57,102 nt of DNA, from contig CAJXWJ010000014.1 of assembly GCA_913062925.1 (NCBI GenBank), forward strand, positions 1 to 57,102, given 5' to 3'. Source of the DNA: an uncultured Pseudorhodobacter sp. Lineage in GTDB: Bacteria; Pseudomonadota; Alphaproteobacteria; Rhodobacterales; Rhodobacteraceae. Below, in pieces: positions 631 through 17,040 of the stretch (position 1 is its first letter; each line of letters opens with the position of its first letter). Below the pieces are notes generated by a model, which was not told the DNA's origin, did no database searches, and saw only the letters and a list, made by a program, of their open reading frames with translations. The position numbers and the translations under genes were made by a program.

Positions 631-1485
631 TTACATTCTGCCCTTCCAAGGCACGAGCCTGCGCTCGACAAAACGCATCAACAGATCAAAAGCAAAAGCG
701 ATGATGGCGATGACGAAAATACCCATGATCACCACAGGGGTTTGCAAAAACTGGCTGGCTGAAAGCACCATATAGCCAAGGCCTTTGGTGGCCGCGACCA
801 TCTCGGCGGCGACAAGCGTGGTCCAGCCAAAGCCGATGCCGATGCGCATCGCGGTCAGGATCTCGGGCAGGGCCGAGGGCATGATGACATAGCGCATCAC
901 CTGCCAACGCGAGGCGCCAAAGGAATAGGCGGCGTGGATCTGTTCAATGGCTGCCGATTTCACGCCCGAGCGTGCGCCCAAGACCACCGGCGCAAAGACC
1001 GACAGAAAGATCAGCAGGATTTTCGAGGTCTCGCCAATGCCAAACCAGATGATCATCAGCGGCAGATAGGCCAGCGGCGGGATCGGGCGGTAAAACTCGA
1101 TCGGGGGATCAAACAGGCCACGCATCAGCGGGCTCATCCCCATGGCAAGCCCGAGCGGCAGGCCGATGACGCAGGCCAGTAAAAACGCACCAAACACCCG
1201 CAGCGTCGAGACGCCAAGGTGCTCTAAAAACGGCGTGCCGGTAAAGCCATCGTTCCAGATCGCAATGAACTTGCCAAAAACCGCCTGAGGCGAGGGCACG
1301 AACAAGGGTTTGACCCAACCCATCGCGGTGACCAGCCACCAGATAAAGAAGAACGTTGCAACCGAGCAGGCCGAAAGCCAAAGCGTGTTGCCTTGGCCGG
1401 GCACGCCGTAGATCTCGCCGGGTTTGGTGGGGCGCGCGCGCGACAGGCGGGCGATCAGCCCTGTGGGTTTGGATGGTTTGCTCAT
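631..1485 (-). CDS. tauC: Taurine/sulfonate-type ABC transporter permease
   Basis: A 284-residue inner-membrane permease of the BPD_transp_1 (TauC/SsuC) family. After a hydrophilic N-terminus of about 35 residues it has a membrane segment near residues 40-56 and several more between 95 and 275. The cytoplasmic coupling loop (EAA-like, around [16 protein letters not shown]) contacts the ATPase. Its start overlaps the end of the ATPase gene by 4 bases, so the two are probably translationally coupled. With the binding protein and ATPase it forms an importer. The neighbouring cuyA suggests cysteate, taurine or dihydroxypropanesulfonate as cargo, but sequence does not fix the substrate. TauC is used as the closest family name. 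Confidence 0.85.
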
Positions 1486-2270
1486 GCTGCGGCCTCTTCA
1501 TCGGCAAAGATGATGGTCAGAATCTCTTCGCGCAGGCGGATAAATTCGGGCGAGGCTTTCACCTGCCGCGCCGAGGCTCCGGCCAGGAATTGCCGCGAAA
1601 ACGGCAGGTCAAACAGATGGGTGATGCGACCAGGGCGCGGCGACATCACCACCAGCTTGGTGCCCATGAACAGCGCCTCTTCGACGCTATGGGTGATGAA
1701 GAACACCGATTTTTGCGTCTCGTGCCAGATGTTCAGGATCAATTCCTGCGCCTTTTCGCGGGTCAGCGCATCCAGCGCGCCCAAGGGTTCGTCCATCAGC
1801 AGAACCTTTGGGTCACAGGTCAGCGCGCGGGCAATGCCCACCCTTTGCTGCATGCCGCCCGAAAGCTTGTAGACGGGCGAGGCTTGAAAGCCATCCAGCC
1901 CCAAAAGCCCTACGAATTTATTCGCCATCTCGTAGCGCTGGGCTTTCGAGATGCCTTGAATTTGCAAGCCAAAGGCGACGTTGTCCAAAACGTTCAGCCA
2001 AGGCAAAAGCGCGTGCTTTTGAAACACCACCGCGCGGTCCGCTCCGGGGCCAGAGACCGGCACGCCGTCCAGCAACAGATCCCCCGACGAGGGCGACAAA
2101 AACCCCGCGATCAGGTTCAACAGCGTAGACTTGCCACAGCCAGAAGCCCCCAGCGCCACCACAAATTCGCCCCTGTCGATGGTCAGGTCGATCTTGCTGA
2201 GCGCTTCGACAGGCGGGCGGCGGTCGGCGGCGGGATATACCACTGATACTTGGTCGATTGTCAGTCCCAT
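1482..2270 (-). CDS. tauB: Taurine/sulfonate-type ABC transporter ATP-binding protein
   Basis: A 262-residue ABC ATPase starting at the ATG at 2270, which is preceded by AGAGGACTT. An upstream in-frame start at 2303 lacks such a site and would fall inside the intercistronic hairpin. The Walker [10 protein letters not shown], the Q-loop region [10 protein letters not shown], the signature LSGGMQQR, the Walker B VLLMDEP and the switch H in FITHS are all intact. LLPW after the Q-loop is typical of the nitrate/sulfonate/taurine subfamily. It energises import through the adjacent permease, with which it overlaps by 4 bases. Confidence 0.88.
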
Positions 2271-2292
2271 AAGTCCTCTCAGGCGGGAAGGG

Positions 2293-2325
2293 GGGCTGCC
2301 CAAGCAGGTGGCGCTTGGGCAGCCC
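2293..2325 (-). other. Intercistronic hairpin between binding-protein and ATPase genes
   Basis: A perfect 13-bp stem with a 7-base loop: GGGCTGCCCAAGC at 2293-2305 pairs with 2313-2325. It lies just after the binding-protein stop, and no T-run follows on the minus strand. In binding-protein-dependent importers such hairpins often protect the upstream message and give more binding protein than membrane subunits. The structure is read directly; its function is inferred. Confidence 0.7.
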
Positions 2326-2333
2326 GACTGGGC

Positions 2334-3323
2334 TTATTTTGCAGCTTCTGCGGCAAACTCTGGGTTCACAAAGCCTGCGTAATCATCGCCAACGCTGTCG
2401 ATCCGGCCTGCTTCTTTCAGGAAGTCAGCCGTGCCTTTGATGGTTTTAGCAGCGCCGCCAAGCCAGGTGTCGGTGATCTGGGTCGCCATCGGCAAAAAGC
2501 CAAAACCTTCCAGAATTCCGGGCACTTGTGCAGCATCCGCCCCGGTGCCGCTGGCAAGGGTTTTCACCTCGGCAGAATCGGCAGTCCAAGCCGCTGGGTT
2601 GCTAAGGTAAGAGGCGTTTGCCTTGTCGATTTCCTTCAGGAAAGCCACCACTTCGGCCTTATGCGCTTGGCCGAATTCGCGGTTCACCACCCAGCCGTCA
2701 AAGGTTGGAAAGCCCCATTCCGCAACCTGATCCGCGCCAAGGATCAGCGTGCCCGATTTCAGCAGTTCCGATTGCACCGGCTGCCAGATCCAGGCCGCGT
2801 CGATCACGCCTTGTTCCCACGAGGCCGCGATCTGGTCGGGCTTCATGCCGATGATGGTGACATCGCCCACCGCAATGCCTTCGTGCTGCAAGGCCCCCAT
2901 CAGCGAGAAATGCGCGGTCGACCCGATTGGCACCGCGATGCGCTTGCCCTTCAGATCGGCGACGCTGGCAATGCCGCTGTCGTTATGAGCGATCAGCGAT
3001 TCCGCTTTGCCGATGATGTCGGAAAAGGCGATCAGCTGTAGATCAACGCCTTGGCTGGCGGCAATCGCCAGCGGCGAAGACCCCAGCTCTGACAAGACCA
3101 CATCGCCCGAGGCCATTGCCGCGATCACATCGGTGCCCGAGTCAAACTTGCGCCACTCGATATCCCAGCCGGTGTCATTTTTCAGCGCATCCGAAGCTGC
3201 AAGCAGCTGCATCGGTGTAGGGTTGCCGAAGTGGCCGATGATGATTTTATCAGCCAAGGCCGAGGTCGCAAGAAGGCTCGAGGCCGCGACGCCGATCAGA
3301 AATCTTTTAATGCTAAGGTTCAT
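2334..3323 (-). CDS. tauA: Taurine/sulfonate ABC transporter substrate-binding protein
   Basis: A 329-residue periplasmic solute-binding protein. An N-terminal signal peptide (KR, then a hydrophobic run ending ATSALA, cleavage near residue 24) is followed by a TauA/SsuA-type fold beginning DKIIIGHFGNPTPMQ. The EWRKFDSGTDVIAAMASGDV region is typical of taurine-binding proteins. A strong AAGGAGA site precedes the ATG. It lies 41 bases after the racemase gene, and a strong hairpin separates it from its ATPase gene. It captures the sulfonate for import. Taurine binding is the family assignment; cysteate or dihydroxypropanesulfonate are possible given cuyA. Confidence 0.85.
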   Translation of the reverse strand: MNLSIKRFLIGVAASSLLATSALADKIIIGHFGNPTPMQLLAASDALKNDTGWDIEWRKFDSGTDVIAAMASGDVVLSELGSSPLAIAASQGVDLQLIAFSDIIGKAESLIAHNDSGIASVADLKGKRIAVPIGSTAHFSLMGALQHEGIAVGDVTIIGMKPDQIAASWEQGVIDAAWIWQPVQSELLKSGTLILGADQVAEWGFPTFDGWVVNREFGQAHKAEVVAFLKEIDKANASYLSNPAAWTADSAEVKTLASGTGADAAQVPGILEGFGFLPMATQITDTWLGGAAKTIKGTADFLKEAGRIDSVGDDYAGFVNPEFAAEAAK

Positions 3324-6408: not shown

Positions 6409-8061
6409 TTAAACAGACGCTGGGCGCTGGAGTAGGTTGACGGCGGCCATCAGCATGTCTTCGTTCATGCCCAAGATGTCGCGTCGTGTTGGAAAGTAGC
6501 GCTGATCTGCCATCGCGCCCAGCCCCTCAAGCGGCAGACCACGGTTCGGCCCTGCCCTCAATGCGCGGCGCACAGCAACACGGCAATCCATGCCAACTGG
6601 CAAAAGCGGGATTTCGGGTAAGCCTGCCTCTGCTGCAAATCCCGATATTTGCGACAGGCTCCAGACATTGGCGCCACCCGCGCCTGTGGTCGGATCGAGC
6701 CCCAAGATATTCCCCAGACGATTGTCTTCAAACCCAGCAACGAAATAATCTGTCGTTGAGTAGCTGAGTGCGTCAATGATCACCACCACTGGCCCACGAT
6801 AGCTGTGTTCAAGCCCCGCATAGTCTGCCGGATCTGAAAGCTCAAAGCCCTGCGAGAAATCCTGCCCTGTTTCGTAGACAAGATCGAGCGAGCGTTGCCA
6901 GCGCTGAAAAAACGGAATTGTACCTGCCATGGCGCGAAGTGGGCGGCTTGCGCGAAAGACATTGCGCGTTGGCTCGATCGCGCGATCGGTTATCAGATGC
7001 AGCAAAGCTTCGCCTGCGGGGATGGTCCCGCCCGGATTGCCGCGTACATCTATAATCAGGCCCGCTGGCGGCATCTGTCGCAGCAAGGCGGCCATGTCTT
7101 CGGCAAAGCGGCGCACATCTTGAACCGAAAACGAAAACAGGCGCAAATAGCCATAGTTGCGCCCATCATCCAAGGTCAGCGTCGAGGCCGATAGCAGATT
7201 TTCAAGACCTGCTGAACCAGACAAGGGCTCGGACAATAAAGCACCATGACGCTGGCCACTTTTGCGAATGACACTGGCGCGGCGTGGTTTAGAGAACAGT
7301 GTCTTTAGCCCGCTGTTGACGATCGCGGTGCCTTCATCCAGACCTAACATGGCGGCAAGGGGGGCGGCCATCGCTGTTCCCGACATCACAGCTCCAGGTG
7401 TCGAGCCTCCCTCTGGTGCGATTGCGACCCGCCAGTTCAAACTGACATGCCGACGCTCGCCTTTCAAAGAGATGTAGCTGAGCGTCACCCAATCCTCTGG
7501 TGGCATTTGCATATAGCCTAAGGCGCGCAATGTCAGGCTGCGCTGGGCCAAAGCAATGCGTGCATAGGGGTTTGATCCGGGCGTGCTCCAAGACAAGTCA
7601 TTGATCAGCTGGGCCACTGGAGTGCCGTTCCAATGCGTGACCTCGACGCCGACTTGCAGCTGATCATCGGGGATTTCGCCAGCGATGCGGCTGACAATAA
7701 GCAATCTGCGGCCCGCTTCATAACAGCTTTCCAGTACAACTGGCAGAAAGGCAATCATGCGGTTCAGGGGCTCGGGCATCCGCAGCGCTGTGTGACGATC
7801 GCGCAGTTTTGTGATAACGGCGTTCAGACGATTTAGAAATGCCAAGTTATTGTAGTAAAGTGGTGCGTCATCGGCCAGAAGTTCCAACTCGCGACTGGGG
7901 TTGATGGCCATTGCCCCTACTTTTTGGGGAAGATGAACGTAATAATCGCCAAGCAATTCGCGCAGGCGGATTGCCGTTTCGCGCCGATCGTCGCTGGTCA
8001 TTGAAACGTCAAAGTCACGCAAGGACCACAGGTCGAATTCCTGAAAATCGGGCTTGGGCAT
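6409..8061 (-). CDS. S41-family peptidase of the TOMM cluster
   Basis: A 550-residue serine peptidase of family S41 (C-terminal-processing/tricorn-like). The catalytic half is clear: NYGYLRLFSF near 303-311, LIIDVRGNPGG near 335-345, and VVVIIDALSYSTTDYFVAGF near 425-445 with the nucleophile probably S435. No signal peptide or membrane segment is seen, so it is expected in the cytosol, unlike Ctp proteases. It starts 10 bases after the SagB gene with AAGGAGATCGCC upstream, so it is the last gene of the precursor-YcaO-SagB-S41 operon. A role in cutting the leader or linkers of the modified precursor is inferred from context. A cleaned PDZ domain is not obvious. Confidence 0.85.
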   Translation of the reverse strand: MPKPDFQEFDLWSLRDFDVSMTSDDRRETAIRLRELLGDYYVHLPQKVGAMAINPSRELELLADDAPLYYNNLAFLNRLNAVITKLRDRHTALRMPEPLNRMIAFLPVVLESCYEAGRRLLIVSRIAGEIPDDQLQVGVEVTHWNGTPVAQLINDLSWSTPGSNPYARIALAQRSLTLRALGYMQMPPEDWVTLSYISLKGERRHVSLNWRVAIAPEGGSTPGAVMSGTAMAAPLAAMLGLDEGTAIVNSGLKTLFSKPRRASVIRKSGQRHGALLSEPLSGSAGLENLLSASTLTLDDGRNYGYLRLFSFSVQDVRRFAEDMAALLRQMPPAGLIIDVRGNPGGTIPAGEALLHLITDRAIEPTRNVFRASRPLRAMAGTIPFFQRWQRSLDLVYETGQDFSQGFELSDPADYAGLEHSYRGPVVVIIDALSYSTTDYFVAGFEDNRLGNILGLDPTTGAGGANVWSLSQISGFAAEAGLPEIPLLPVGMDCRVAVRRALRAGPNRGLPLEGLGAMADQRYFPTRRDILGMNEDMLMAAVNLLQRPASV

Positions 8062-8071
8062 GGCGATCTCC

Positions 8072-9538
8072 TTATGCTCCTATGGGTGGGCCACTCAGCG
8101 CGAATTCCCCGATGGAGCCTTCGACCTCGATCCGCGAACCCGTAAGGCGACGAAACGTCTCGATTGACCCTAAACCAAGCCCGCAAGGTGACAGGCCCAT
8201 AGCCGTGGCCGCCATGTAGAAGGCCATGTAAATCGCACCCGTGTTCTTAAGCTGGGTTGCATAGGCCATGCCGGAATATTTCCAGCTTACACGCTGAAAC
8301 CTTGCGCCCAGCGTCAGAACCGCATCGGGAATGGTGGTCTCGGCCATCGCGGTCACGGCCTGCGCGATTAACGCTTCACAATCGGTATTCCACGGCCTGA
8401 CCAGCAATAATTCATGCGTGGCGGCAGCGTAAAAGTAGAAGCCCGGCATCAGGCCGACAACCTCGCGTGCAGTGATCCAGACGTCTTGTTCATAGCTGCC
8501 CCCGCCGGATGGATAGGGGCGGGCGGTAAACTCACCTATTCCACCGTCAAAGATGCGGGTGATCCTTGCGGTGCGCCAAAGAAAAAGACCTAACTCTTGC
8601 AAATTAAGCGGCCGGCGTGCCCCAGGCCTGACCGAAACGCGCGCCTCAATGGTCTGCGACAGGGTTGGATCATTGGCTGCCATCGCCATCTCGTCCGGCC
8701 TTGCCAGCTGAAGTCGGGCCAGATGCTTTGGCTCGGGGCGAAGCGCCGGAACCGGGTCGATGATATTCTTGAACCGAAAATCGCCGCCAATGCGCTGATC
8801 GTGCCGCCCCAAGCGTGACCGCAGATGGAAGGCCAGATCATGGACATCCCATTGCCGCAGGGTCGGATCTTGGTCTTCGTCACTCAGACCGCTCGCGTCT
8901 AGCGGTCTGATCAACCCTGCCGCAGAAAGCAAGCTTAGCAGCGGTTCACAATCGGCTTCGGGGATGTCTGCGCGGCGCAAGTCTTCAAGCGCAGCTCCAG
9001 ACCCCAGCAGAGCCAAGGCCTGCATTGCGGTTGTGCTGCGGCTAAGTGGGTTGATATGGCAGCGAAATGGTGACAGCGGGCTTTCAAGGATCAACCCCGC
9101 ATTATGCGGCAGTTGCCCGGGCACATGGCCGGCCTCATCCATCCGAATCTGTGCAAAGCGTGACAGCCGGTAGGTCACGCCGGCCTTAGCAGATGTCGCG
9201 GTTAAGGCAGGTGCAGGGGCGACAGGAGCCAGCCGAAACAGGGATTCGGTTTCGTCTGCTGCGGTGGCATAGGCCAGCATACGCAATTCGCCCAGTTGGT
9301 CCATCACTTGGCTTGCCACAACAGCTGCCAATGGCTCACCCCCCTGCATCGCTGCAATCAAGAGAGCATCGACTTGGCTGCGGGCAACGGGTCTTCGCAA
9401 CAGATCAGCAAGCGCAACCGCCGTATGTGGCGCCGACATCCCCAAGCTGGCCAGCATCTCATCCAAAACGCCGAGTGGGTCGGTTTTGGTCCGCGGACCA
9501 CGATGCTGTCCGGGTGGCTGGCAGAGGCTTAGGTACAT
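8072..9538 (-). CDS. SagB-type azoline dehydrogenase (ThcOx family)
   Basis: A 488-residue FMN-dependent oxidoreductase. It starts at the ATG at 9538 behind GAGGAGGCTGAG, 10 bases after the YcaO stop. An N-terminal extension of about 115 residues is followed by the ThcOx-type N-terminal module (YRLSRFAQIRMDEAG near 123) and then the nitroreductase fold: RRPLNLQELGLFLW near 309, ARPYPSGGGSYEQDVWI near 339, VSWKYSGMAYATQLKNTG near 425 and AMGLSPCGLGLGS near 450. Enzymes of this type oxidise azolines made by a YcaO cyclodehydratase into thiazoles or oxazoles, using FMN. The extra N-terminus is longer than usual and unassigned. Confidence 0.88.
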   Translation of the reverse strand: MYLSLCQPPGQHRGPRTKTDPLGVLDEMLASLGMSAPHTAVALADLLRRPVARSQVDALLIAAMQGGEPLAAVVASQVMDQLGELRMLAYATAADETESLFRLAPVAPAPALTATSAKAGVTYRLSRFAQIRMDEAGHVPGQLPHNAGLILESPLSPFRCHINPLSRSTTAMQALALLGSGAALEDLRRADIPEADCEPLLSLLSAAGLIRPLDASGLSDEDQDPTLRQWDVHDLAFHLRSRLGRHDQRIGGDFRFKNIIDPVPALRPEPKHLARLQLARPDEMAMAANDPTLSQTIEARVSVRPGARRPLNLQELGLFLWRTARITRIFDGGIGEFTARPYPSGGGSYEQDVWITAREVVGLMPGFYFYAAATHELLLVRPWNTDCEALIAQAVTAMAETTIPDAVLTLGARFQRVSWKYSGMAYATQLKNTGAIYMAFYMAATAMGLSPCGLGLGSIETFRRLTGSRIEVEGSIGEFALSGPPIGA

Positions 9539-9548
9539 CTCAGCCTCC

Positions 9549-11804
9549 TCACAGGAACATCGCGATCGGATTAAGCGCGGTTTCGGGCAGGGGCGCTGTA
9601 ACATCGCCCATGGTGAGCGGCACCTCAAACAGCCGCCCCGGCGCATAGCGTGCCCAGAAGTGGCGCAGTCCGGGTGCCATGACCTTCACAACCGGCAAGC
9701 CAACATCCGCACGGGTCTGATCGAGTATCAGCACCTCGTGTCCGGCCTTTTCGATGGCTGCAATAGCCTCGTCCAACAGATCGGAAATCGCACCACCCTG
9801 CCGCCGCTGGGCTTTGCTTGGGTCAGAGAGAATATCGCTTTTCGGTTGGATATAGGGCTGGTTTTCGAGAGTGGCTGTGCGCCACCAATGCAGGCATTCG
9901 GGGTCGTCAAAGGCGTAATGCGTCACGCCATCGCTGCCCACATCCAAAACCGCTGGCATAAACTGGTTCATTTCGGTGATGGCCCGCAAGATGCCAGTGC
10001 GTGCGTCCAGATGGGCCCCAAAACCCATCACGATATCCTCGGTCGGCCCATAAGTGCGACGGTTTAGGCACACATAAGATGGGATCCCAAGATCTGTTGT
10101 AAGGTCAAGCACCCAAAACTCGCGCCCCATCTGCGCGAACCAAGCCTGCATGTTACTGATGAATGGATCATCCAAAGCGGTAAGATCAACCCGAGGCCGC
10201 TGCACGCGATTATACCACCAGATCGCGACGCTATCACGCTCGACCAGTTCAAAAAGACCCTGTAACACGGCGTCTTCATAAGAGGCGCCCGCGGCACAAC
10301 CGTTGCTGTCTGCCCAGCTGGTGAACCTTGGGCCCTGAGCGGGGTAGCTGTAAAACAGCAGACTGGCAGGCAGATATTTGATGCGCTTTTCACTGTGTGA
10401 CCAGACCGGAGTCCAATCTGTGATCTCGGTCTCTTCCAGCCAATAGGGCACAACCTGAAACTGGCTGCCGCGCGCGTTCCAAGTGTCACGTTCGCGGTAT
10501 TGTTTTTCGGAATAAAGCATCAGCTTATTGGGGTGAATTCCTGCATCGCCAAATTGACGCAGGCTTCCTCGCAGGGTGATTTCCTCACCTCGATATTTGC
10601 CGCTGTAGCGTTCCAGCGCCTCGCAAAGCGCCGATGTGCGGGCCTGTTGATCACTACGTCCCTTGCCAGAAGAGTAGCTGCGCAGATTCTGCTTCAATCC
10701 TGAAAGCGCCATCGGGGCCACCGCCAAATTATTTCCTGCGCTGTAAGACAGCAACGGGGTATGGCCATTCCACTTGCTGGGGATCAACTCTTTCACGATG
10801 CCAGTTATCGGACCAATCAGATGGCTGTAGCGTGATAGCGTTTGGGCGGCACTGGCGCTGCGTTCACCGTTCTCGACACCTTTCACGCCGCTAAACGCGC
10901 GAAATTCCGTAGGCGCCCCGCCGATCCTGCCCACCGCAGGGTCGCCGCAGCACCCGCATTGGGGGCGTCGTGCCAGCGGATGCTGGCGGCGCGCAAAGCC
11001 GAGGGGATCCAACTCTTGTATTCGGCCTTCCAAATCGACGTTGCGTCCTGATTGGACAAGCCGCGCCAATTGGACCGCCGCCACACTGAGCGTTTGCGCG
11101 ACAAAAGCCTGCGGGCGTGGCACGGGGCGTTCGGGTGGGCCGGCCACACCCAAACGGCGCGAGAGCAGCAGCTCGACCTCGCGGTTTTCTACAAGCCTTG
11201 TTCGAAGACATTCCCAGCACCCTGTCGTGCCGGGGACAAACAGCGGCCCTACCAAGGGCTTTAGCCCAGCCGCTCTGACCAACAGCCAAGCCATCCGCTT
11301 TGTCTGAAAGTGTCGGTTGAGCGGTTCTAGCTGCGGATCGAGATAATCATCGGCCAAGACAAGCGCCACGGCACCTTCGGTCCCTTGTGGGGCGATCTGC
11401 AAGCCCATCGAGCCCAACCAACTTGCGGCAATTTCAGGATTGGTCTTGCCCAAGCCAATCACGCTGATCGGATAGGCCGCGGCGCGGTCGCGTGCGCTGC
11501 GGGTGTCGATGCCAAGGCTTGACCAGAACAGTGCCTCTTCTGGAGCAGCCTGCGCATCCGCTTCGCGCAGATGTCCCATTTGCGCAAGGTAATCTAGTGT
11601 GTGCGAGACATCTTCGGCGGGAACTTGACCGGCCAAACTGGCAACAATTTCCGCCCGGGTCCGCTTGCCATCGATCATCGACAGCACGGGCGTGATGGCG
11701 CCACCTTCAAGCGCAAAACTTTCGGTGTCCGACAACAGGATGTTGCCTTCGCCATGCAAATGATACACGGCAAAATCTTCCCGCAAAACAGGCCTTGCGA
11801 TCAT
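9549..11804 (-). CDS. Fused TOMM leader-binding protein and YcaO cyclodehydratase
   Basis: A 751-residue fusion. The N-terminal part (about 1-290) is the TOMM leader-peptide-binding/E1-like (C) domain, with a nucleotide-fold-like ISVIGLG near 113 and a cysteine set C196-x2-C199 and C283-x-C285-C286 that would bind zinc. The C-terminal part (about 325-751) is YcaO, with SSGKGRSDQQART at 378-390, ALCEALERYSGKYRGEE, and LFELVERDSVAIWWYNR near 518-533 for ATP and Mg binding. It would cyclise Ser, Thr or Cys of the precursor into azolines. AAAAGGAGATCAGAG precedes the ATG. The C-terminus ends LNPIAMFL, so the usual PxPxP tail is degenerate. Confidence 0.9.
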   Translation of the reverse strand: MIARPVLREDFAVYHLHGEGNILLSDTESFALEGGAITPVLSMIDGKRTRAEIVASLAGQVPAEDVSHTLDYLAQMGHLREADAQAAPEEALFWSSLGIDTRSARDRAAAYPISVIGLGKTNPEIAASWLGSMGLQIAPQGTEGAVALVLADDYLDPQLEPLNRHFQTKRMAWLLVRAAGLKPLVGPLFVPGTTGCWECLRTRLVENREVELLLSRRLGVAGPPERPVPRPQAFVAQTLSVAAVQLARLVQSGRNVDLEGRIQELDPLGFARRQHPLARRPQCGCCGDPAVGRIGGAPTEFRAFSGVKGVENGERSASAAQTLSRYSHLIGPITGIVKELIPSKWNGHTPLLSYSAGNNLAVAPMALSGLKQNLRSYSSGKGRSDQQARTSALCEALERYSGKYRGEEITLRGSLRQFGDAGIHPNKLMLYSEKQYRERDTWNARGSQFQVVPYWLEETEITDWTPVWSHSEKRIKYLPASLLFYSYPAQGPRFTSWADSNGCAAGASYEDAVLQGLFELVERDSVAIWWYNRVQRPRVDLTALDDPFISNMQAWFAQMGREFWVLDLTTDLGIPSYVCLNRRTYGPTEDIVMGFGAHLDARTGILRAITEMNQFMPAVLDVGSDGVTHYAFDDPECLHWWRTATLENQPYIQPKSDILSDPSKAQRRQGGAISDLLDEAIAAIEKAGHEVLILDQTRADVGLPVVKVMAPGLRHFWARYAPGRLFEVPLTMGDVTAPLPETALNPIAMFL

Positions 11805-11833
11805 CTCTGATCTCCTTTTGGGTGGCGCAGTGA

Positions 11834-11860
11834 CAGGCGGCCCCTACTGGCTGCCGCCTG
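11834..11860 (-). other. Hairpin between precursor and YcaO genes
   Basis: CAGGCGGC at 11834-11841 pairs perfectly with GCCGCCTG at 11853-11860 across an 11-base loop. No T-run follows on the minus strand. The position right after the precursor stop suggests a leaky attenuator or 3'-end protector that would make more precursor message than enzyme message. The structure is read directly; its function is inferred. Confidence 0.55.
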
Positions 11861-11869
11861 CCAAGTTGA

Positions 11870-13642
11870 TCACCAGCCGTAGCAGCCGCTGTAACCCATG
11901 TTCGGCATCCGCTGTTGTGCAAGGTTGAGCGCAGGCATCATACGCGTTGCCGAAATTGCCATGCCCGGGCGCTGCATCTGCATGGCCTTCAAGTCGCTTG
12001 AACCGCCACTGCCATAGGTTCCAGCTGACCCCACCGACCCCGCGCAGCCACCGAAGGTGCCCGCACTGCCGAAAGTCCCAGCAGAGCCCCAGCAATCGCC
12101 GCTCACTGGATCGGCTGACATGCTCTGACCATCATCCCCGACGCAGCCACAATAGGTTGCAAAGCTGCCCAGCGTGGCGCCCGACAGGCGGGTAGAAGAG
12201 GGCATCTGAGCGCTGGATGTCGCCATCATGGCCGATCCCTGTGTTGCCATCATCTGGCAGGGCATCGCCTGTTGTTGCGGCATCGCTTTCATCTGAACGC
12301 GCCCCCCAGCACAGCCATAGGTGCCGGCAGTGGCAAATGTGCCCGCGGTTCCGCCAACCGATCCAATCGAACCTGCCGATCCGACGGACCCCACGCAATC
12401 GCCCGAAACAGGTGCATTCATCGTCGGCACTTGGTTTTGACGAAGCGTGGCTTGGGTGCCCTGCGTCATCACGGAACCCATTGTCGGCGTCAGGCAGAAA
12501 TCAGGTGTTTTCATTTTAAGTTCGTTAGATCCCCCGCTTCCGTAGGTGCCTGCTGTGCCGACCGAGCCTGCGCAGCCGCCGAAGGTGCCGGCGCTGCCAA
12601 AGCTGCCTGCTGATCCCCAGCAATCGCCTGACATCTGCCCCGTGTAGTCACCGCCCGAAAGGCGGGTCGAACTGATCGGGCCCGGGTTGGTAAGCATGCT
12701 GCCAGTGGTGACCTGCGTGGCCAATGTCGGGACAGGAGTTGAAAGGCAGGATTGGGTCAGTTGCGTTGCCGTGGTGAAATTGCAAGGCTTGATTGACGCC
12801 ACAGTAAAGTCGCATTGCCGGATCGAGGCCTGTGTCAATTCACATTGCCGGATCGAAGCCACGGTTGGCTTGATAGAGGCTTGGGTCATCGGGGTGGATT
12901 CACAAAGCGCCTGAGCGCCCGCGCAGCCATAGGTTCCAGCTGTGGCGAAGCTGCCAGCGGTGCCGCCAACTGATCCGATTGAGCCCGCACTCCCGAAAGA
13001 TCCGACGCAATCGCCGCCAAGAGTGGAAGAAGTTCCTGAACTTTGCATATTCATACCTTTCGTTGCCAATGATTGTGTCGTTGCAAATGAGTAAGCCGCC
13101 GTCATCCCCATTGATCCGGCGCTCGCTGTGGTGTCCACGCTTTGCTCTGCCGTTCCTGCCGACGCATCAGGCTCGGCTGGGGTAGGCTGTTGCGGCTCAG
13201 GCACGGGCATCCACCAGCAGCCAGACGTAAAGCCGCTGGCAACCGAGCCTTGGGCCGTTGCCGCGCAGGCGCATCCGCTTGAAGCTGTGGTGATATCGTC
13301 GCCGACGGGATTTGGCTTTGCCTGACCTGGCATCAAACCGCTTGCTGCGGCGGGTGGATGTGCCGCAGCTCCAATCATTTCAAGCGCGGCAGAATAGCTT
13401 GGTATCAAATCTTGTTCTGGGTCGATATCCCCAAGGCCAGAGACCCCGAATACTGCAAAGGCTTCGGCAAGGTTATCGCGCAAGACGGCCGCGAAATCGC
13501 TGTCTGATGCTGCCCGCGAGATGACCCTGGCCCAGACCAACTGAACCTCTGGTGAAACCTTCGGTCGGCTGGTGTCGCCAGGGCCTGATTTTGGGTTTTC
13601 AGTTGCGTCGGCTGTTGCGCGCGCGGATGTCTTTTTCGCCAT
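11870..13642 (-). CDS. Giant multi-cassette TOMM precursor with NHLP-like leader
   Basis: A 590-residue protein that is probably the substrate of the neighbouring YcaO/SagB enzymes. Residues 30-70 (WARVISRAASDSDFAAVLRDN... then FGV) look like the nitrile-hydratase-like leader of some TOMM precursors, an assignment made by eye. From about 120 on it is low-complexity and rich in Gly, Ser, Thr, Ala and 21 Cys. Four 35-residue cassettes occur at 209-243, 338-372, 413-447 and 514-548, alternating types starting GDCVGS and GDCWGS. Residues 253-299 carry pentapeptide-like repeats. The ends hold SGCWW (140-144) and GYSGCYGW (583-590). No signal peptide or membrane segment is seen. GAGAGTGAC precedes the ATG. 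Known precursors are mostly far shorter, so an unmodified structural protein is the main alternative. Confidence 0.8.
   Translation of the reverse strand: MAKKTSARATADATENPKSGPGDTSRPKVSPEVQLVWARVISRAASDSDFAAVLRDNLAEAFAVFGVSGLGDIDPEQDLIPSYSAALEMIGAAAHPPAAASGLMPGQAKPNPVGDDITTASSGCACAATAQGSVASGFTSGCWWMPVPEPQQPTPAEPDASAGTAEQSVDTTASAGSMGMTAAYSFATTQSLATKGMNMQSSGTSSTLGGDCVGSFGSAGSIGSVGGTAGSFATAGTYGCAGAQALCESTPMTQASIKPTVASIRQCELTQASIRQCDFTVASIKPCNFTTATQLTQSCLSTPVPTLATQVTTGSMLTNPGPISSTRLSGGDYTGQMSGDCWGSAGSFGSAGTFGGCAGSVGTAGTYGSGGSNELKMKTPDFCLTPTMGSVMTQGTQATLRQNQVPTMNAPVSGDCVGSVGSAGSIGSVGGTAGTFATAGTYGCAGGRVQMKAMPQQQAMPCQMMATQGSAMMATSSAQMPSSTRLSGATLGSFATYCGCVGDDGQSMSADPVSGDCWGSAGTFGSAGTFGGCAGSVGSAGTYGSGGSSDLKAMQMQRPGMAISATRMMPALNLAQQRMPNMGYSGCYGW
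11999..12103 (-). repeat. Precursor cassette W2 (residues 514-548)
   Basis: A 35-residue unit starting SGDCWGSAGTFGS and ending TYGSGGS. It differs from cassette W1 at only two positions (SF to TF, GT to GS). It consists of Gly-[Ser/Thr/Gly]-X triplets with two Cys. It follows an SSTRLSG motif and is followed by DLKAM, as W1 is followed by ELKMK. Confidence 0.85.
12302..12406 (-). repeat. Precursor cassette V2 (residues 413-447)
   Basis: A 35-residue unit starting SGDCVGSVGSAGS and ending TYGCAGG. It is nearly identical to cassette V1 and has Cys at relative positions 4 and 32. Gly-Ser and Gly-Thr pairs recur about every third residue. Confidence 0.85.
12527..12631 (-). repeat. Precursor cassette W1 (residues 338-372)
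   Basis: A 35-residue unit starting SGDCWGSAGSFGS and ending TYGSGGS, with Cys at relative positions 4 and 20. Ser or Thr after Gly recurs every three residues, so up to about ten Gly-Ser/Thr/Cys pairs could be cyclised. Confidence 0.85.
12746..12886 (-). repeat. Pentapeptide-like repeat block in the precursor (residues 253-299)
   Basis: The segment reads in fives as ASIRQ, CELTQ, ASIRQ, CDFTV, ASIKP, CNFTT. The centre of each is I, L or F, with A or C two places before and small polar residues elsewhere, as in the pentapeptide-repeat family ([A/C][D/N/S][L/F/I]xx). About eight units are present, too few for a stable right-handed helix alone. Confidence 0.65.
12914..13018 (-). repeat. Precursor cassette V1 (residues 209-243)
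   Basis: The first of four 35-residue cassettes, starting GGDCVGSFGSAGS and ending TYGCAGA. It is paired with V2 at 12302-12406; the two differ at only a few residues. Confidence 0.85.
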
Positions 13643-14000
13643 AGAATGTCACTCTCAAATACACATGCTTTCAGAGGAAAAGCCCCGTATTTTTCGCGGC
13701 CTTGCACCTCTTGCAATAAAGTAGATTTGAATAAAATTTTAATACAACCCTGAGAATCAGTCTGCACGCAAAGATGTTATCTGTAAACTGAATTGTTTAA
13801 ATTCGGCGGGGTGGTTGGTATCCTGTCTCGCGCTGGGGTTGACACTACGGGGGCGGAAAAATCTGAAATCCCTGCGACAAACCGTCTTGACGAGGTTCTG
13901 GGCAAAGCGCGAGCGGCTTGCTATGGTCGCACCTGATTTGACGACATTGGCTTGCCAGGTTCTCGCGTCACCTCGGAATTTTGGCCTAAAAGGAAACAGC
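13643..14000. promoter_or_regulatory. Divergent control region of the TOMM precursor and MBL-fold genes
   Basis: A gene-free stretch of 358 bases. The part nearest the precursor (about 13690-13800) is markedly A+T rich compared with its surroundings. A TTGACA at 13839-13844 points toward the MBL gene but has no good -10 partner. GAGAGTGAC on the minus strand serves the precursor start, and AAAAGGAAACAGC precedes the ATG at 14001. An inverted repeat at 13702-13716 is listed separately. No RNA gene was recognised. Confidence 0.5.
13702..13716. promoter_or_regulatory. TTGCA-N5-TGCAA inverted repeat upstream of the precursor
   Basis: TTGCACCTCTTGCAA has 5-base perfect arms and a T-N11-A outline. 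The arms and spacing match the palindrome in the cuyR-cuyA gap at 5458-5472. It lies 60 bases upstream of the precursor ATG, where an operator would be expected. Confidence 0.45.
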
Positions 14001-14909
14001 ATGCGCATCACCCGACGCAATCTTCTTACCTCTGCCTTGGCAGCCAGTGTTGTGCCAAAGATGCTTTGGGCCAGCACGCAGGTCACGTTGGGTGCGATGG
14101 AGATTTCGTCTTTGTCGGATGGCAATTTGATGCTGCCGGGGGCGTTTATTCTGGGTGGGATGCCGGCGGATGAGGTTGCGACACTTCTTGCCAAATATAA
14201 CCTCTCGACAGAGACGCTCGAGCCGTCGTGCAACGTGACGCTGCTGCGTTCTGGAGGGCGGAATGTGTTGTTTGATGTGGGGGCTGGGCCTGATTTTCAG
14301 CCAACTGCGGGCAAGCTTGGTTTGGCGCTCGAGGCGCTGGGGCTCACGGCTGAAGACATTACCGATGTTGTCTTTACCCATGGCCACCCCGATCATCTCT
14401 GGGGGCTGCTTGACGAATTTGACGAACCGGTTTTTGCCAAGGCAACGCATCATTTTGCGCAGGGCGAATTCGACTATTGGACCGATGAGAATACCCTTAG
14501 CAGCATTGGGGCCGAGCGTACGACCTTTGCCGTGGGCGCTGCGCGTCGGCTGAATGCCATTGCCGATCAGCTGCGCTTTTTTAACGACGGCGAGGAAATC
14601 TTGCCCGGTGTCGCGGCGCGGGCGACCATTGGCCATACCCCAAGTCACATGTCCTTCGAGCTGCGCGATGGGTCAGAGTCGATGCTGGTGGTCGGGGATG
14701 CCTTGGGCAATCACCATGTTGCTTTTGAGCGTCCGGCTTGGGCTTCGAACTCTGATCAGGATGCCGCTTTGGCGGCCCAGACACGGCTGGGTTTGCTGGA
14801 TCAACTGGCCTCTGAGCAGATGCTTTTGCTTGGCTATCATCTGCCCAATGGCGGCCTTGGCCGCGCCGAGCGGTCGGGCGACACCTATCGCTTTGTGCCC
14901 GCCACTTAG
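14001..14909 (+). CDS. Tat-exported MBL-fold metallohydrolase
   Basis: A 302-residue metallo-beta-lactamase-fold protein. The start at 14001 gives a twin-arginine signal (MRITRRNLLTSALAAS, cleavage near residue 25) and has AAAAGGAAACAGC upstream. The metal motif THGHPDH is at 126-132 (H127, H129, D131, H132), with later ligands in GHTPSH and VVGDALGNHH. The fold hydrolyses esters, lactones or thioesters with two metal ions, here outside the cytoplasm. It is divergent from the TOMM precursor. It may be a resistance or tailoring enzyme of that cluster, or an unrelated neighbour. Confidence 0.85.
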   Translation: MRITRRNLLTSALAASVVPKMLWASTQVTLGAMEISSLSDGNLMLPGAFILGGMPADEVATLLAKYNLSTETLEPSCNVTLLRSGGRNVLFDVGAGPDFQPTAGKLGLALEALGLTAEDITDVVFTHGHPDHLWGLLDEFDEPVFAKATHHFAQGEFDYWTDENTLSSIGAERTTFAVGAARRLNAIADQLRFFNDGEEILPGVAARATIGHTPSHMSFELRDGSESMLVVGDALGNHHVAFERPAWASNSDQDAALAAQTRLGLLDQLASEQMLLLGYHLPNGGLGRAERSGDTYRFVPAT

Positions 14910-15243: not shown

Positions 15244-17040
15244 TTAGGCGAAATGCGCGATCAGTTCGGCCAAATGCGGCTCGAACTTACGCCATTTGCC
15301 GCTGCTGCCTTGATAAATCCCCGAACGCACCTGCCGCACCGAGGCTGTTCGCACCGCGCGTTGGTTGTCTTGAGGAGAGAGGCAGGCAGCGTCAAAGGGC
15401 AGGCCGCAATAGTCCAGCATCTGCCGGATGGCGGGCTCTGGATTGCGGGTCAGCGAGTCGTAATCGACATCCATAAAGCCGTCAGGATAGGCCGCGCGCC
15501 ATTGCTGCATCATCTGGGTATACAGATCGTAATAGCCGATGGTATCGGACAAAGAGTTGTCATAGCCGATGCCCAGATTGGTGAAAAAGGTCTTATAGAT
15601 CGACCAGCACACCGCCACCGGATCGCGGCGCATGTGCAAAATCCGCGCTTCGGGCAGGGCTTTGCGGATCAGGCCGATCAGCCGAAAGTTCGCAGGCAAC
15701 TTATCGACCACATAGCGCGCATCGCCCGCGCCTTGATCAATCGCTGCCAGATAGGCGCTGCGAATCCGCTCTAGGGTCTGGGTGTCAAAGCTGCCGGAGG
15801 TCTGCGCGGTCTCGGCCATCACCAAACGTGGCAGCACCTCTAACTCGCCCGCGCCATGCACCAGCGGATGCGCCGACAGGATCTGTTCGGTCAAACTGGT
15901 GCCCGAGCGCATCATCCCCAACACAAAGATCGGGGTGCGCGCGGCGGGTGGCGGCGTCAGGGCCGGCGCGGCAGGCGAGAACCGTTGCACATAGTCGGCA
16001 AACAAGGCGCGGTCGGTGGCAAGGCTATAAGGTGACTGTGACGCGCGCAGGGCATTGGCCTGTTGCAGATGCGCAAAGCTGGCGTCCGCCTCGCCGATAT
16101 CTTCATAGGCCTTTGCAAGGCCAAAGTGCAGCGGCACACGGTCTTCAAATGGCAGACCACTGTCAGCGGTCATTGCTTGCATCTGCGCGATCAGTGGATC
16201 TTCTGCGGTAAAATCACGCGCGCGGCCCAGATTGAAAAACGCGATGGCCGATCGGGGATTGATCGTCAGAGCCCGTTCAAACAGCTCTTGCGCCTTGGGT
16301 AGATCGCCTTCTGACAAGGCCAGATTGCCCAGATTGCCCAAGGCGGCGGCATTCTTTGGGTCGGCTTGCAGCACGCTTTCCAACAGCTGCCGCGTCGCAA
16401 ACAAATCGCCGCTGGTGGTCAGGCAAGAGGCAAGGCCGATCTTGGCTTCCAGATCAGCGGGGTGGCGCGCGCTATAGGCTTGAAAGGCCGCAATCGCCTC
16501 GGCGTCGCGCTGCGACAGCGCCAGAACTTGCGCGCGCTTTAATTGCGCCAAGGCGAAATTCGGGTCTTGCTTTAACACATGATCAAGGCTGATCAGGGCC
16601 TGCGGCAATTGTCCGGCTTGCTGCTGCGCGGCGGCAAGGTTCATGCCTGCCTCGAGGAAGCGCGGGTCCAGTTTCAGCGCGATGCCAAGGTATTTGATCG
16701 CGGCGGGCAGCAGGCCGGCCTCCATCAAGGCACCGCCCAGAATGCTGTTGGGCCAAGGATGCTGTGGGTTCAGCCGCACCGCTGCGGCCATTTCTTCGAT
16801 GGCGGCGTCAAGCCCGATACGGTCGCGCACCGCAAGGAAATGCTGCAGATGATGCGGGCCAAAGGGGCGGGCGGGCAGGCCGGTTGCGGCCTGCTGCACC
16901 TCGGCCAGTGCCGTCAAAAGCCGCGCATTGGCAGGAAATTTTTCCAGCGCCATCAAGACCTCGCCGCGCACCTGCGCCGCACGACCCGCTCGGATCTCGG
17001 TCTTGGCGTTGCGCAGCACTTTGTCGATGTTGACGCTCAT
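15244..17040 (-). CDS. TPR-repeat sulfotransferase
   Basis: A 598-residue protein. Residues ~1-330 hold tandem tetratricopeptide repeats (for example the LAPA-like helices PNSILGGALMEAGLLPAAIKY and AALGNLGNLALSEGDLPKA). Residues ~370-598 form a sulfotransferase domain with the 5'-phosphosulfate loop VLGMMRSGTSLTEQIL and the 3'-phosphate loop HMRRDPVAVCWS. It would transfer sulfonate from PAPS to an unknown acceptor in the cytosol, with the TPR part binding a protein partner. It is divergent from the yggS gene. It is common in Rhodobacteraceae and need not belong to the TOMM cluster. Confidence 0.88.
   Translation of the reverse strand: MSVNIDKVLRNAKTEIRAGRAAQVRGEVLMALEKFPANARLLTALAEVQQAATGLPARPFGPHHLQHFLAVRDRIGLDAAIEEMAAAVRLNPQHPWPNSILGGALMEAGLLPAAIKYLGIALKLDPRFLEAGMNLAAAQQQAGQLPQALISLDHVLKQDPNFALAQLKRAQVLALSQRDAEAIAAFQAYSARHPADLEAKIGLASCLTTSGDLFATRQLLESVLQADPKNAAALGNLGNLALSEGDLPKAQELFERALTINPRSAIAFFNLGRARDFTAEDPLIAQMQAMTADSGLPFEDRVPLHFGLAKAYEDIGEADASFAHLQQANALRASQSPYSLATDRALFADYVQRFSPAAPALTPPPAARTPIFVLGMMRSGTSLTEQILSAHPLVHGAGELEVLPRLVMAETAQTSGSFDTQTLERIRSAYLAAIDQGAGDARYVVDKLPANFRLIGLIRKALPEARILHMRRDPVAVCWSIYKTFFTNLGIGYDNSLSDTIGYYDLYTQMMQQWRAAYPDGFMDVDYDSLTRNPEPAIRQMLDYCGLPFDAACLSPQDNQRAVRTASVRQVRSGIYQGSSGKWRKFEPHLAELIAHFA

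Follow-up and report, generated by a model that had tools for sequence, protein, structure and literature searches.

A giant multi-cassette precursor with an NHLP-type leader, encoded beside YcaO, SagB and S41 peptidase genes in an uncultured Pseudorhodobacter sp. and at related loci

The window (the whole stretch of 57,102 nucleotides analyzed here, from an uncultured Pseudorhodobacter sp.) encodes a 590-residue protein which, with a probability of about 70%, is a polyprotein for azole-bearing peptides of the TOMM/LAP class, led by an NHLP-type leader, with a neighboring S41 peptidase probably cutting its linkers. We infer both the modification and the cutting from the encoded sequences. Giant multi-cassette precursors of this kind appear to form a conserved family, an NHLP-led TOMM variant that is apparently undescribed. 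The original prediction of a large multi-cassette TOMM-type precursor with one NHLP leader and adjoining enzymes was upheld, but the protein is not a one-off: uniqueness was rejected, with at least nine loci found, the window counted. The genes and the intergenic region concerned are as follows.

6409..8061, minus strand: CPAF-like S41 peptidase of 550 aa in which no signal peptide was seen by eye (PF03572, PF17816, NF033424)
8072..9646, minus strand: SagB-family azoline dehydrogenase (TIGR03605, E 7.1e-36)
9549..11804, minus strand: fused C-D protein (leader-binding/E1-like domain plus YcaO cyclodehydratase), 751 aa (TIGR03882, TIGR03604, PF02624)
11805..11869, minus strand: 65-nt gap from the precursor to the cyclodehydratase gene, with an 11-pair stem (predicted fold)
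11870..13642, minus strand: multi-cassette TOMM precursor, 590 aa, ATG start (ORF, cassettes and homologues at eight other loci)

The 590-residue ORF was recovered at exactly the predicted coordinates; it lies on the minus strand and has an ATG start. It is followed, after 65 nt, by the C-D gene, then by sagB and, 10 nt further on, by the S41 peptidase gene. Domain matches bore out the proposed fused leader-binding/YcaO enzyme with SagB downstream; the C-D protein is a full-length relative of LynD (E 4.4e-151) and TruD (E 6.5e-151). The sagB ORF overlaps the end of the C-D gene, and its start is probably over-long. The segment 11795-11885 folds with a z-score of -2.46 (2 of 200 shuffles fold equally well), and the predicted stem in the gap is possibly an attenuator that would set the precursor-to-enzyme ratio. 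No exporter was recognized among the six window proteins or the ten relatives' neighbors that were scanned, and the same six proteins included neither a peptidase-ABC exporter nor a Lan dehydratase.

Other genes surround the operon. About 3 kb beyond its S41 end, at 631-3323 (minus strand), an ABC-importer-like permease and a taurine-type binding protein were recognized by eye. Beside the operon lie a divergent AidB-like MBL-fold gene (13815-14909, plus strand) and a gene for a TPR-sulfotransferase protein (15244-17040, minus strand), neither of which had a match among the filtered ORFs of at least 140 aa at 12 related loci.

Residues 101-590 of the precursor contain 21 Cys, 64 Ser and 57 Thr among 490 positions, and these residues recur with a period of three (lag-3 autocorrelation 2.0, equalled in none of 500 shuffles). 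The four cassettes that had been proposed under a single leader were found, each 32 residues long.

12917..13012, minus strand: cassette 1, type A, residues 211-242 (73.7 bits, HMM seed member)
12530..12625, minus strand: cassette 2, type B (C-W-G), residues 340-371 (76.1 bits, HMM seed member)
12305..12400, minus strand: cassette 3, type A, residues 415-446 (73.2 bits, HMM seed member)
12002..12097, minus strand: cassette 4, type B, residues 516-547 (76.3 bits, HMM seed member)

The scores of 73-76 bits come from cassettes that themselves belong to the HMM seed. In the non-seed precursors (L055, L056, L057, L059 and L067), full cassettes scored 36-60 bits, while the best score among shuffled cores (n = 900) was 26.9 bits. 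Only bit scores were used, because 942 domains passed E <0.01 in the 900 shuffled proteins. Chance repeats were ruled out as the source of the pattern by the shuffles together with this HMM control. Within the window, the two A copies, like the two B copies, share 94% of their residues at only 75-77% DNA identity, so they are not recent copies.

The precursor was compared with the products of loci recovered by an enzyme-profile scan of one genome per species, which gave at least 589 stretches and at least 517 relatives, of which 79 loci were kept. Among the matches listed, multi-cassette precursors of 296-643 aa lie directly upstream of the enzyme at eight or more other loci.

Roseovarius atlanticus: 584 aa; enzyme 83% identical to that of the window
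Shimia: 643 aa
Salipiger bermudensis, two genomes: 365 aa; 389 aa with an N gap
Devosia, two precursors: 594 aa; 433 aa from the chosen start (longest ORF 463 aa)
Tenacibaculum (Bacteroidota): 296 aa
Bradyrhizobium Tv2a-2 (L058:1643-2701, plus strand): 352 aa, multi-cassette, zero Cys

The gene order precursor, C-D, SagB, S41 is the same in the window and in all eight of these relatives, in two phyla; the relatives were found via the enzyme, and the precursor-enzyme adjacency is therefore ascertained. The Bradyrhizobium cassettes reached at most 16 bits on the cassette HMM and so are, by sequence, another form; as this precursor lacks Cys, any rings in it would be oxazoles only. A Silicimonas contig with an S41 gene begins inside a cassette-bearing frame. 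At a further locus, in Sinorhizobium medicae (L066:7086-7640, plus strand), an NHLP-led precursor repeats QQTSGWSACIGLPVTAQLCFSGAG..., with SagB and S41 downstream and an N gap that hides the copy number. Its leader matches TIGR03793 (E 1.3e-9) and its repeated core is unrelated to the window cassettes; judged from these sequences, it is a multi-core TOMM with a different core.

The leader of the window precursor (13433..13561, minus strand; about residues 28-70; leader profile match and hhalign) was assigned to the NHLP type, as had been proposed, on the strength of a profile of eight aligned leaders. Against the PDB, this profile matched chains of nitrile hydratase (30.9 bits, E 2.2e-6); they occupy the first 25 of the 34 rows with E up to 1. 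Aligned by hhalign with eight short NHLP-type leaders it scored 49.1, the maximum of 100 column shuffles being 11.3; subset profiles also exceeded the shuffles (29.4 for the window with L053 and L054, 31.0 for L055, L057 and L058). The profile of the window, L053 and L054 leaders alone gave a weaker match, with an hhalign probability of 61. Taken singly, the window leader matched weakly (E 0.028 to NF038399), as did those of L053 (E 0.043) and Devosia 66-14 (E 0.011), with D. nitrariae at E 8.6e-5; the leaders of L054, L055, L057 and L058 had no NHLP model match at E 0.1. The L(X)4L motif has been reported for MprE/PatE. For the looser pattern [LIVM]X4[LIVM], residues 46-110 of the window leader contain only VLRDNL, at 53, and the relatives are variable.

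The original prediction had named homologues without YcaO/SagB neighbors as evidence against it; none were found among 376 alphaproteobacterial genomes or in the genomes of nine relatives. The precursor profile matched only the genome of origin among the 376 Alphaproteobacteria, as did the precursor search of 394 family genomes (in both, scoring was confined to the first 3-4 candidates of each genome), and plasmids gave no match. In eight of the nine relatives' genomes, which are those that built the profile, the match was at the TOMM locus only; the ninth, Sinorhizobium, had none.

Enzyme relatives at the family level were present in 28 of 394 genomes. Thirteen of their neighborhoods, including the nine with the longest enzyme matches, were inspected, and no cassette precursor was recognized by eye among the Gly/Ser/Thr-rich ORFs. 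At the class level, 12 of 385 genomes had an enzyme relative, the genome of origin included; the other eleven (L157-L167), some of whose stretches end at contig ends, showed no S41 gene and no cassette precursor, and SagB was found in L166 only.

Two plasmid loci are of a different make. In Thalassospira marina (L047:4926-15709, plus strand), LanM, a short NHLP precursor, a fused cyclodehydratase and an S53 peptidase are encoded together with a gene annotated as cytochrome P450 that matches SagB too. A Methylovirgula plasmid (L051:8281-8754, plus strand) carries a 157-aa Gly/Cys/His-rich ORF, a possible unusual precursor, directly upstream of a fused cyclodehydratase and SagB.

To describe the cassettes, a table of 21 was compiled from five genomes (the window, R. 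atlanticus, Shimia, Devosia 66-14 and D. nitrariae), the Salipiger, Tenacibaculum and Bradyrhizobium precursors being left out as carrying other cassette forms. The collecting pattern fixed Cys at column 2, Gly at column 4 and Ser/Thr at column 5; the cassette HMM, counting scores above the shuffle maximum, recovers an identical set of 21 in these genomes. Columns 2, 5, 8, 11, 14, 18, 21, 24, 27 and 30 hold Cys, Ser or Thr in all 21 cassettes, columns 2 and 5 by virtue of the pattern and the other eight freely. Exchange within the class is common (8 of the 10 columns in type A and 8 of 10 in type B), and no change to Ala or Gly occurs in any of the ten. Cys and Gly alternate at column 16, and type B shows free variation at column 32. 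Residue-neighbor counts, which omit L067 because of its N gap, give a 1.95-fold enrichment of Gly ahead of Cys/Ser/Thr. Types A (C-x-G) and B (C-W-G) alternate in only five of the nine giant precursors: as ABAB in the window, R. atlanticus and Shimia, ABABAB in Devosia 66-14 and BAB in D. nitrariae.

The cassettes of the window and of R. atlanticus retain the Cys/Ser/Thr class at 40 of 40 positions, with seven within-class exchanges, and Gly at 43 of 43; dN/dS is about 0.03, at a dS (about 1.8) that is near saturation. In the linkers, the class is kept at 71 of 94 positions and dN/dS is 0.24. Exchange within the class without loss to Ala or Gly would fit the formation of a thiazole or (methyl)oxazole at each site.

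The linkers contain a short recurrent motif.

12653..12670, minus strand: STRLSG, residues 325-330, candidate processing signal
12179..12196, minus strand: second STRLSG, residues 483-488, same S[ST][QR][LVA][SG]G pattern

The pattern S[ST][QR][LVA][SG]G is present in 2-6 copies per chain in all nine giant precursors, where shuffles average no more than 0.02, and is absent from the Sinorhizobium precursor fragment. Such SSTRLSG-like sequences are candidate processing or docking signals.

The fourth gene of the operon, for the S41 peptidase, had gone unmentioned in the original prediction. Its product matches the CPAF model NF033424 below the cut-off, and its best PDB match is CT_858 (E 1.4e-6), which we take to be CPAF. 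His90, Ser435 and Glu512 are invariant in 11 homologues and, going by CPAF positions, presumably represent the catalytic triad. Among the matches listed, an S41 gene adjoins the enzyme in 10 of the 94 loci with a good enzyme match, starting 1.4-1.7 kb past that match, and in none of the other 84 enzyme relatives, 74 of which have at least 3.3 kb of downstream sequence. Upstream of the enzyme, nine of the ten S41-linked loci carry an internally repeated ORF; the tenth ends 389 bases upstream, within an open cassette fragment.

Of the 84 S41-negative loci (78 with at least 1.5 kb upstream, 69 with both flanks sufficient), five had an upstream ORF flagged as repetitive (L039, L051, L080, L117 and L131). 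No cassettes were seen in these by eye, and they were retained as positives in the table, which gave a Fisher p of 1.8e-8 for the association of S41 with a repeated upstream ORF. Recomputing the S41 labels behind this table left them unchanged. The p value does not count independent events, because the S41 carriers are essentially one clade. In a quick tree of 93 enzymes, with SH-aLRT as the only support measure, 10 of the 11 S41 rows (window included) grouped in a single clade (SH-aLRT 99), next to the Sinorhizobium row; all eleven together had a support of 29. The association of S41 with cassettes is clear and is not made of many independent events.

The S41 profile had two matches at E 1e-40 in 385 alphaproteobacterial genomes, one in the genome of origin and one in L156 (355-2319, minus strand). 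The latter homologue, 34% identical, lies on a contig of 6.8 kb in which YcaO had no match; the gene just upstream of it looks patatin-like by eye.

The following course of events is proposed for the polyprotein. The leader would dock on the N-terminal domain of the C-D protein, the YcaO domain would cyclodehydrate the Cys/Ser/Thr residue of each Gly-[Cys/Ser/Thr]-X triad, and SagB would oxidize the rings, giving about 10 azoles per 32-residue cassette. The S41 peptidase would then cut the linkers, probably near the SSTRLSG-like motifs, and might release polyazole peptides of two kinds (A and B) in a fixed ratio from one chain. The more specific proposal, that the alternating cassettes yield deca-azole peptides and that a dedicated CPAF-like S41 peptidase excises a two-component product, convergently with fungal dikaritins, is put forward tentatively, at somewhat worse than even odds.

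The original prediction had left open whether such a chain yields one very long polyazole or several products; the co-occurrence of S41 with multi-cassette precursors favors the latter over the single polyazole. If the chain were instead modified throughout, with S41 only removing the leader or trimming, an intact azole-rich polymer of about 500 residues would be the functional form. This would suit the single leader common to all cassettes, the 102 of 142 Cys/Ser/Thr residues in positions 101-590 that fall outside the 40 cassette positions, and the linkers, which are themselves partly repetitive. However, the linkers evolve much faster than the cassettes, as spacers would, and S41 accompanies multi-cassette precursors even where, in one case, the core is unrelated. 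We regard a working polymer as unlikely.

YcaO domains also form thioamides, and against the McrA thioamidation model the C-D protein scores 124.7 bits, short of the 365-bit cut-off. Thioamidation, or rings at a few Cys residues only with Ser/Thr conserved for other reasons, nevertheless has little probability: the enzyme is homologous to LynD/TruD over its full length, has an E1-like domain and lies next to SagB, the Ser/Thr columns are as class-conserved as those bearing Cys, and one family member has no Cys at all.

The triplet pattern is reminiscent of silk, collagen-like and snow-flea antifreeze repeats, and one member has a weak match (E 0.014) to a collagen-like adhesin model, as would be expected of an unmodified Gly-rich structural protein that merely neighbors TOMM genes. 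This reading, very improbable beside an NHLP leader and the same neighbors at nine loci in two phyla (ascertained via the enzyme), was rejected: the ten constrained columns contain no change to Ala or Gly while column 16 alternates between Cys and Gly, and no copies were found away from TOMM loci in the 376 class genomes or the relatives' own genomes.

A thiopeptide precursor is what the NCBI name 'thiocillin family RiPP' points to, and NF033482 exceeds its cut-off on the precursor (48.2 bits against 25, E 9e-13, in four stretches) and also matches L053 and L054. Yet the best stretch spans only 28 of the 48 model positions and falls in a Gly/Ser-rich cassette, and the six locus proteins scanned include no Lan-type dehydratase or pyridine synthase, so that the label, which has hardly any probability, was rejected (a whole-genome PF04738 search without a match proves nothing alone, the controls likewise giving none).

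Multi-core RiPP precursors are already known from cyanobactins, microviridins and fungal dikaritins. Cyanobactins, whose cores are short, share the enzyme architecture of the polyprotein system proposed here (LynD, TruD, PatD). Repeated core cassettes are likewise described for their precursors (PMC6514808), but cyanobactins employ subtilisin-type PatA/PatG proteases and macrocyclization (partly per PMC10885120), whereas the protease here is of the S41 family and none of the six locus proteins matched an S8 (PatA/PatG-type) protease. Fungal dikaritins (ustiloxin, phomopsin) resemble the system described here in combining multi-core precursors with S41 peptidases, which are conserved in their clusters (PMC6514808). 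They differ in being eukaryotic, with a signal-peptide-like leader, KR/Kex2 sites and Tyr-based macrocycles instead of azoles (PMC6514808). In a review of RiPP leader proteases (PMC10885120), 'S41' does not appear as a whole word.

With the NHLP-type TOMMs and azole proteusins, the precursor shares a nitrile hydratase-like leader, a YcaO cyclodehydratase and, probably, azol(in)e chemistry. Haft 2010 defined NHLP leaders with short suffixes, the tabulated precursors having an 87-residue leader and a 27-residue suffix (PMC2887384). Instead of a single short core after the leader, the window precursor carries four cassettes over 490 residues, and the family comprises multi-cassette chains of 296-643 aa accompanied by an S41 peptidase. 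Docking of an NHLP leader on a YcaO enzyme has been described for MprE/MprC (PMC12455567). A triplet-based core is shared with nostatin A, the product of an NHLP/YcaO cluster, in which we read Ser/Thr/Cys triplets, each bearing an azole (PMC11583998). Among NHLP-Burk precursors, fusions of a tandem pair into a single polypeptide are described from Delftia and Acidovorax and taken to suggest a two-peptide product (PMC2887384); that is a fused pair, unlike the many cassettes behind one leader, with S41, found here.

The large TOMM genome-mining survey of Cox 2015 took precursors to be <150 aa (PMC4603692), so giant multi-cassette systems would be missed there. Its main text nowhere mentions Pelagibaca, Salipiger, Roseovarius, Shimia, Devosia or Alphaproteobacteria. 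The original prediction had known of no family with this layout, and no description of one appeared among the entries listed by full-text searches, several of which gave just the best 10-20, in a collection with few subscription papers.

If the polyprotein reading is right, these precursors would be among the most heavily azole-decorated ribosomal chains known, with about 40 rings in the window cassettes alone, and would show a single leader serving many cores in nature. They would also argue for a role of S41 peptidases in the maturation of bacterial RiPPs, and the alternation of A and B cassettes makes the two-component hypothesis directly testable.
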